Assembly (NCBI RefSeq): GCF_016428595.1
Contig: NZ_JAELVQ010000002.1
Coordinates: forward strand, 124,001 to 188,000
Source: Snuella sedimenti
Lineage (GTDB): Bacteria > Bacteroidota > Bacteroidia > Flavobacteriales > Flavobacteriaceae
Length of the DNA: 64,000 nt
Reading direction: 5' to 3'
Position 1 is the first letter of the stretch. Every line of letters begins with the position of its first letter. The notes under the pieces are model-generated. The model did no database searches and had not been told where the DNA came from. It saw only the letters and a list, made by a program, of their open reading frames with translations. Positions 8,118 through 10,953 of the stretch are shown piece by piece. Position numbers and translations under genes: made by a program.

Positions 8118-8387
8118 TTATTCTTCTATAACTTTAGAAACTACTAAATACCCATTTTTCTCTTTGGGAAAATTTTCTATTATAATTTGCTTTTCTATTG
8201 CAGAACTTTCAATTACAACATCATCTCTCAAATCGTTTACAGACAGAGCATTATTATTAACATTATTAAAAGACTCATTATTTTCGGTATGGGCGTTCTT
8301 TATTACGTCAAATAATTTGTTAACAGCCTCCGAGGGTTGTGCTCCTTTAATACTCGACAATATGTCGACGGTCATAATTTTACTCAT
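8118..8387 (-). CDS. gatC: Divergent GatC-like amidotransferase subunit C
   Basis: A protein of 89 aa. The C-terminal half reads like GatC: a 'DLRDDVV' block followed by 'NFPKEKNGYLVVSKVIEE', equivalent to the conserved 'LR.D......APE...G...VPKVIE' tail that wraps between GatA and GatB. The N-terminal half is unlike standard GatC, which begins with a helix of the type 'VEHIAKLARLEL'; here it reads MSKIMTVDILSSIKGAQ. Position directly before gatA supports the call. The ATG at 8387 is chosen because longer frames run into the terminator hairpin. An alternative start is the ATG at 8375. Confidence 0.75.
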   Translation of the reverse strand: MSKIMTVDILSSIKGAQPSEAVNKLFDVIKNAHTENNESFNNVNNNALSVNDLRDDVVIESSAIEKQIIIENFPKEKNGYLVVSKVIEE

Positions 8388-8406: not shown

Positions 8407-8435
8407 AAAAAAAGCCTTCCGAATTCGGAAGGCTT
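8407..8435 (-). terminator. Attenuator terminator in the gat operon leader
   Basis: Bases 8412-8435 form a perfect 24-base palindrome. On the minus strand it folds as a stem of about 10 bp and is followed by seven T (8413-8407). It lies 20 bases before the gatC start and just after a short Asn-rich open frame, the place of an attenuator rather than an end-of-gene terminator. No gene lies upstream on this strand that it could close. Confidence 0.88.
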
Positions 8436-8498
8436 CATATATTTTTTAACAATAACCTTCCAGTCCTAAAAATTAGGATTATTGAAATTATTATTGTT
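8426..8498 (-). promoter_or_regulatory. Competing 1:2 and 2:3 RNA pairings of the gat leader (anti-terminator)
   Basis: Segment 1 is AACAATAA (8498-8491), inside the Asn codons. Segment 2 includes TTATTGTT (8455-8448), which pairs exactly with segment 1, and TGGAAGGTT (8462-8454), which pairs over 9 positions (two G-U) with AGCCTTCCG (8434-8426), the 5' arm of the terminator. The pairings exclude one another, as in trp/his/phe attenuators. A ribosome stalled on Asn codons would hide segment 1 and free segment 2 to prevent termination. A ribosome reaching the stop codon (8468-8466) would cover segment 2 and allow termination. This comes from manual pairing, not energy calculation. Confidence 0.75.
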
Positions 8499-8513
8499 AT
8501 TATTATTTATCAT
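8466..8513 (-). CDS. Asn-rich leader peptide of the gatC-gatA-gatB/aspS operon
   Basis: A 15-codon frame, MINNNNNNNFNNPNF followed by TAG, with seven Asn codons in a row and ten in total. It is too short for normal gene calling. A TAnnTTTG box ends 17 bases before its ATG, and the terminator lies 31-59 bases after its stop. Its likely role is as a translational sensor of Asn-tRNA(Asn) charging, not as a functional peptide. The caution is that AAT repeats are easy to produce in A+T-rich DNA. The case rests on position, the matched pairings and the downstream genes together. Confidence 0.8.
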   Translation of the reverse strand: MINNNNNNNFNNPNF

Positions 8514-8530
8514 TGCTCTATTTTGAAGGT

Positions 8531-8538
8531 CAAATATA
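8531..8538 (-). promoter_or_regulatory. Promoter -7 box for the gat operon leader
   Basis: TATATTTG on the minus strand fits TAnnTTTG. A transcript starting a few bases on would have a 5' leader of only about 10-14 bases before the ATG of the Asn-rich peptide. No clear -33 TTTG was found. Confidence 0.6.

Positions 8539-10953
<2,415 letters not shown>

Follow-up and report, generated by a model that had tools for sequence, protein, structure and literature searches.

A candidate asparagine-specific leader-peptide attenuator before the gatC-gatA-gatB::aspS operon of Flavobacteriaceae

Described attenuators and amidation pathways

Ribosome-mediated leader-peptide attenuators are known for the trp, his, phe, leu, thr and ilv operons. 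The leader described here lies on the minus strand of a 64 kb stretch of flavobacterial DNA (the window, by which we mean the whole stretch that was analysed). It shares with the classical attenuators a short frame rich in control codons for the amino acid supplied by the operon, four segments with mutually exclusive 1:2, 2:3 and 3:4 pairings, and, ahead of the first structural gene, an intrinsic terminator. It differs from them in its Asn control codons, in having tRNA-dependent amidation as its target, in its Bacteroidota host, and in having no Shine-Dalgarno start. Rfam holds known attenuator families of the same class, such as Phe_leader (RF01859) and His_leader (RF00514). The best match of the leader is Phe_leader, at 37.5 bits against a gathering threshold of 55, with control codons for Asn and not for Phe. 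Across the whole window, no Rfam 15 family reaches its gathering threshold. Judged from its sequence, the leader is very probably an asparagine-specific transcription attenuator of the ribosome-mediated kind, controlling tRNA-dependent Asn synthesis.

Attenuation by leader peptides has been inferred for amino-acid operons in Flavobacterium psychrophilum (PMC9723704). Those attenuators come from the same bacterial family and belong to the same mechanism class, and the accessible part of that paper, which also describes the TAnnTTTG promoter consensus for Flavobacterium, makes no mention of Asn or gatCAB. The first-pass annotation of this DNA knew of no such Asn leader for GatCAB in Bacteroidota, and our search of open-licence PMC papers found neither an Asn leader nor a leader for GatCAB. 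The mechanism class is old; its specificity for Asn and its target, tRNA-dependent amidation, seem to be new. We think it likely that this is the first Asn-specific leader-peptide attenuator and the first to guard tRNA-dependent amidation, with feedback through the product aminoacyl-tRNA where the pathway has displaced AsnB/AsnA. With such a leader, asparagine would join the amino acids for which ribosome-mediated attenuation is recognised; the leader also provides strong comparative evidence for an attenuator of this kind in Bacteroidota, beyond the classical phyla.

RNA control of the AspRS and GatCAB pathway has a precedent in Clostridium, where it is exerted by a T-box (J Biol Chem 287:20382, 2012, as cited in PMC4206432). 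As far as the citing paper describes it, that system has in common with the present leader the RNA-based control of AspRS and GatCAB and the use of Asn-tRNA supply as the signal. Unlike the leader, the T-box binds uncharged tRNA directly and needs no leader translation. Could this locus also be a T-box, or some other RNA in direct contact with uncharged tRNA(Asn), like the one that controls the transamidation operon of Clostridium acetobutylicum? The target genes are of one kind and the signal is the same, and T-box control of tRNA-dependent amidation is on record by citation (Saad 2012, in PMC4206432). T-box covariance models have no match here, however, and the approximately 130 nt from the -7 box to the T-run appear to be taken up by a translated frame and the hairpins that go with it. 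We assign this explanation a negligible probability.

The amidation pathway has its own described counterparts. GatCAB has been proposed as the asparagine pathway of Deinococcus, Thermus and Bdellovibrio (PMC4206432). Deinococcus radiodurans and Thermus thermophilus have AsnRS, GlnRS, two AspRS and GatCAB, with no AsnA or AsnB (PMC4206432), and the same set is seen here. In those two species the second AspRS is archaeal-type with a gene of its own; here it is of bacterial type and part of a GatB fusion.

Anatomy and proposed working of the leader

Read on the minus strand from 8538 to 8407, the leader consists of a TATATTTG box, a MINNNNNNNFNNPNF-TAG frame, and then an alternative hairpin ahead of an intrinsic terminator, with gatC next (Table 1). 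The frame opens with an ATG at 8513 and runs for 15 codons (M I N N N N N N N F N N P N F) to the TAG at 8468-8466; ten of these codons are for Asn, seven of them consecutive. Within segment 1, AACAATAA (8498-8491) is the exact complement of TTATTGTT (8455-8448) in segment 2, and the hairpin made by the two segments is capped by a further pairing of 8478-8473 with 8469-8464. Segment 2 has a second partner, as TGGAAGGTT (8462-8454) pairs with AGCCTTCCG (8434-8426) through nine pairs, including two G-U. The terminator, AAGCCTTCCGAATTCGGAAGGCTTTTTTT, runs to 8407. Direct reading bore out the first-pass annotation to the base in its coordinates for the box, frame, pairings and terminator; the 15-codon frame with its ten Asn and seven-Asn run is as it stated, and both of the complementarities that it reported are present. 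The leader segment folds at -32.5 kcal/mol, compared to a mean of -16.9 for shuffled sequences (z -5.1; 0 of 200 shuffles).

Table 1. Features of the leader and of the operon that follows it, in window coordinates
Feature	Positions	Strand	Remarks
Promoter -7 box TATATTTG	8531..8538	-	Fits the Bacteroidota sigma-A consensus TAnnTTTG
Leader peptide frame MINNNNNNNFNNPNF, stop TAG	8466..8513	-	Same frame in 76 distinct sequences
Segment 1, within Asn/Phe codons	8484..8498	-	Partner is segment 2
Segment 2 TGGAAGGTTATTGTT	8448..8462	-	Partner is segment 1, or segment 3 via 8462-8454
Segment 3, terminator 5' arm GAAGCCTTCCG	8426..8436	-	
Segment 4 (terminator 3' arm CGGAAGGC) and T-run	8407..8421	-	
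gatC, divergent, 89 aa	8118..8387	-	TIGR00135 22.9 bits, below cut-off; same position and synteny in relatives
gatA, 466 aa	6714..8114	-	TIGR00132 434.8 bits, best family, below the cut-off of 481
gatB::aspS fusion, 1111 aa	3291..6626	-	GatB, residues 14-477; bacterial-type AspRS, residues 517-1111

The region is A+T-rich, and chance AAT repeats arise in such DNA. One might then see here only an insulator, an ordinary terminator against upstream read-through, accompanied by an Asn-rich frame of chance origin. The upstream neighbour is a gyrB-like gene (9004-10953) on the opposite strand, divergent from the operon, so there is no co-directional transcript for an insulator to stop. Nor is there a second such frame: among short ATG frames (8-35 aa) on both strands of the 64 kb window, this is the only one with at least five identical residues in a row. 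The frame is kept in 76 sequences, only before gatC, and chance is thereby excluded as its origin. An insulator beside a chance frame is an explanation that we find scarcely credible.

The working of the attenuator can be outlined as follows. RNA polymerase would start just 3' of 8531, and a ribosome would begin on the 15 codons of the leader. Given ample Asn-tRNA(Asn), the ribosome would reach the TAG, with its footprint over the GGAAGG of segment 2 (8461-8456). Upon its release at the TAG, segment 2 would pair again with segment 1, leaving segment 3 free for the 3:4 terminator, and with that terminator formed transcription would end short of gatC. Under a shortage of Asn-tRNA, the ribosome would stall on the Asn run and cover segment 1, permitting the 2:3 antiterminator to form. 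This structure would block the terminator, and gatC-gatA-gatB::aspS would be transcribed. With the fused AspRS and GatCAB, Asp-tRNA(Asn) would then be formed and converted to Asn-tRNA(Asn) by amidation. The geometry of this scheme can be read from the sequence. The ribosome footprint, the stalling and the termination are modelled on the trp/his paradigm; with them we infer the translation of the leader and the direction of control. Since the Asn-tRNA(Asn) route is apparently the sole asparagine source, the regulated enzymes would directly produce the molecule that the leader senses. This would be an unusual loop, in which the regulated product and the sensed molecule are one aminoacyl-tRNA. 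The carriers are marine bacteria, and in them the genes would apparently be read only when charged asparagine tRNA is short.

The operon and asparagine supply

The first structural gene most likely starts at the ATG at 8387 (MSKIMTV), and not at the in-frame ATG at 8438 just ahead of the terminator stem. GatC is divergent here, which explains why the Pfam HMM for GatC had no match in this genome and why GatA served as our handle on the operon. The gene content and order given by the first-pass annotation, gatC-gatA-gatB/aspS, hold, except that gatB and aspS are not separate genes; they form one fused open reading frame. GatB and a bacterial-type AspRS in one polypeptide amount to a covalent two-enzyme complex. 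Complete GatB-AspRS fusions of more than 1000 aa occur in 26 loci, the remaining loci being cut or shorter. The fused AspRS, which is probably non-discriminating, has an RDHG motif. The His of this motif, which may mark relaxed specificity, is present in 26 of the 26 complete fusions. RDHG is also found in the P. aeruginosa Asp/Asn enzyme (4wj3), and T. thermophilus AspRS1 (1efw) has RDLG.

The genes for tRNA-dependent Asn synthesis are complete in this genome, comprising GatC, GatA, GatB and the extra AspRS; AsnRS, GlnRS and a separate AspRS are encoded elsewhere. Both of its tRNA-Asn genes have U1-A72, a requirement for tRNA-dependent Asn synthesis (PMC4206432). Searches of the genome with NF006949 (AsnB) and TIGR00669 (AsnA) found neither enzyme. 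One AsnB-like protein was considered as an asparagine synthetase and set aside because of its low score (230.8 versus a cut-off of 499) and its position between glycosyltransferases; it is probably a polysaccharide enzyme.

The same replacement extends through the family. AsnB is present in 0 of 55 GatA-positive genomes, compared to 85 of 94 GatA-negative genomes, and five of those 85 belong to four genera in which GatA-positive members occur as well. Nine genomes have neither GatA nor AsnB, and seven of these have AsnA, an enzyme found in none of the 16 GatA-positive genomes tested for it. In two genomes (G041 and G098), GatA, AsnB and AsnA were all not found; these may be asparagine auxotrophs, or may use another route. 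All 18 genomes tested for GlnRS have it and thus do not depend on GatCAB for Gln-tRNA. As the GatCAB operon replaces AsnB/AsnA, gatC-gatA-gatB::aspS appears to be an asparagine-biosynthesis operon, standing beside an ordinary AsnRS, GlnRS and second AspRS. In this genome, GatCAB and the fused AspRS appear to be the sole asparagine-making route. This offers a reason for the retention of GatCAB in a bacterium that has both AsnRS and GlnRS: across the family, the asparagine synthetases on one side and GatCAB with the fused AspRS on the other stand in for each other almost perfectly.

Conservation and distribution of the leader

Leaders were collected by two routes. The first used GatA homology and ignored the leader. 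GatA was found in 58 of 397 Flavobacteriaceae genomes, and the leader is present in 35 of the 57 gatCAB upstream regions retrieved in this way; the motif used to call these 35 included the FNNP codons and excluded the TAG. The second route was blind to genes. A degenerate DNA pattern (four Asn codons, Phe-Asn-Asn-Pro, TAG) was run over the genomes of 84,980 species and gave 67 matches, every one with gatC directly downstream on the same strand, its start 77-244 nt 3' of the leader. There was no background. As far as titles tell, all of the matches are from Flavobacteriaceae, one being titled only Bacteroidia. Both FNNP and TAG had been written into the scan pattern, so independent evidence on how constant they are can come only from the 35 loci of the GatA route, and there for TAG alone.

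The 76 distinct leaders have 14-16 codons, 7-10 of them for Asn. All 76 have the -7 box (TATATTTG in 59 and TATCTTTG in 17), which ends 10-23 nt before the leader ATG. Hairpins 1:2, 2:3 and 3:4 are predicted in every one, with mean energies of -12.9, -12.2 and -16.6 kcal/mol respectively, and in none of 40 loci did more than four out of 200 shuffles match the 2:3 complementarity. Segment 2 reads GGAAGGTT in 72 leaders, GGGAGGTT in three and GGAAGGCT in one. Pairwise identity in the leader core is 95%, versus 50% at the third positions and 84% at the first and second positions of gatA codons. The first-pass annotation had proposed an alignment across Flavobacteriaceae as the check on its Asn attenuator with exclusive 1:2, 2:3 and 3:4 pairings. 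About 76 distinct sequences preserve the Asn run, the in-frame stop, the promoter box and all three stems, and this family-wide conservation, along with the occurrence before gatC only, argues for the attenuator. Covarying stems, which it had named as support, are seen in part. In the terminator, the pair 8426:8421 shows two-sided change (G-C in 17 of 35 leaders and A-U in 13 of 35), and the outer pair 8433:8414 changes from G-C to A-U in two of 76. Stems 1:2 and 2:3 are nearly invariant, with little covariation, as expected where one segment must pair in two ways; their support comes from conservation and complementarity.

Selection on the leader peptide is visible at the Asn codons that lie outside the paired region. 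Counted back from the Phe codon, codon -6 is AAT in 55 leaders, AAC in 14 and other in six (Asn in 69 of 75), and codon -5 is AAT in 35, AAC in 35 and other in five (Asn in 70 of 75). The codons at -8 and -7 are variable at every position. Asn is thus kept at -6 and -5 with free exchange of AAT and AAC, which indicates selection on the encoded residue, while the third bases inside segment 1 are fixed because the pairing demands it.

Beyond the Asn run, FNNP is almost invariant. That would be expected of an arrest peptide (N6-7 F N N P), or of a general translation sensor that responds to, for example, slowing by antibiotics and not to Asn-tRNA. However, nucleotides of the F, NN and P codons lie within the 1:2 hairpin (8487-8484 with 8461-8458; 8478-8473 with 8469-8464), so most of their constancy is explained at the RNA level. 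The residues after Pro are free to vary, the Asn codons outside the stem hold their residue under free synonymous change, and the regulated operon makes Asn-tRNA. An arrest peptide or general sensor is very unlikely on this evidence, and we prefer asparagine-specific attenuation.

The terminator is present in 35 of 35 aligned leaders as a G+C-rich stem of 10-11 bp followed directly by at least five T. Its place close to gatC raises another explanation, control at the level of translation, in which the leader and its hairpins couple or block gatC initiation and the 3:4 stem is no terminator. About 80 nt separate the leader stop from gatC, whose start follows the stem by 17-22 nt, as such control would allow. 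Against this, the stem and T-run make a textbook intrinsic terminator, and no part of the 3:4 stem pairs with the gatC start; we hold translational control to be highly improbable. For the transcription attenuator, the same spacing is informative. The first-pass annotation had named a transcription start downstream of the leader as evidence against itself. Of 72 distinct leaders measured for this distance, 64 have 17-22 nt between the end of the T-run and the gatC ATG, too little for another promoter, which makes such a start unlikely. Three loci have 168-244 nt from the TAG to gatC and could have room for another promoter.

In the other 22 of the 57 upstream regions there is no leader; these have no Asn-rich frame and carry a promoter-like AACTTTYGTAATTTTG directly before gatC (loci L008, L014-L016, L018, L022, L024, L027, L028, L030, L032, L041, L043, L045, L046, L048, L056, L058 and L064-L067). 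Relatives with the same operon and no leader had been listed by the first-pass annotation as grounds against its proposal. They exist, beside the 35 that keep it, and we read the 22 leaderless operons, with their different promoter, as loss or gain of regulation and not as a contradiction. On a GatC/GatA tree, the leader state changes about ten times by parsimony, with at least four changes on supported branches, so placed that the leader is gained or lost repeatedly among these sequences. Close relatives with and without the leader make this a well-defined system for bench work.

All leaders found belong to one bacterial family, Flavobacteriaceae. Most carriers are of the Algibacter group. 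Leader and operon are also present in five Polaribacter assemblies (L103, L122, L138, L149 and L163), where they were possibly transferred as a unit. An Asn leader before asnB was sought in four GatA-negative genomes and none was found, and none of 27 loci examined in other Bacteroidota had a leader before its distant gatA (about 40-45% identical). A family scan with a covariance model (R2) at E 0.01 had matches in 293 of 397 genomes, of which the real element accounts for the 37 above about 90 bits; the model added two genomes that have the operon on short contigs. Matches below about 90 bits are other terminators, with the exception of ilvD leaders. One of the latter is a second attenuator in the genome studied here, outside the window (G000:C11:10620-10754, locus L234). 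It has an Ile/Val-rich frame, MKRQFLNIISIIVIVIIS-stop, and a GGCCTTCC/GGAAGGC terminator before ilvD, and thus belongs to the same mechanism class with other amino acids. In a relative (locus L231), MKRNLINIIAVVIIVIISQ stands before ilvD.
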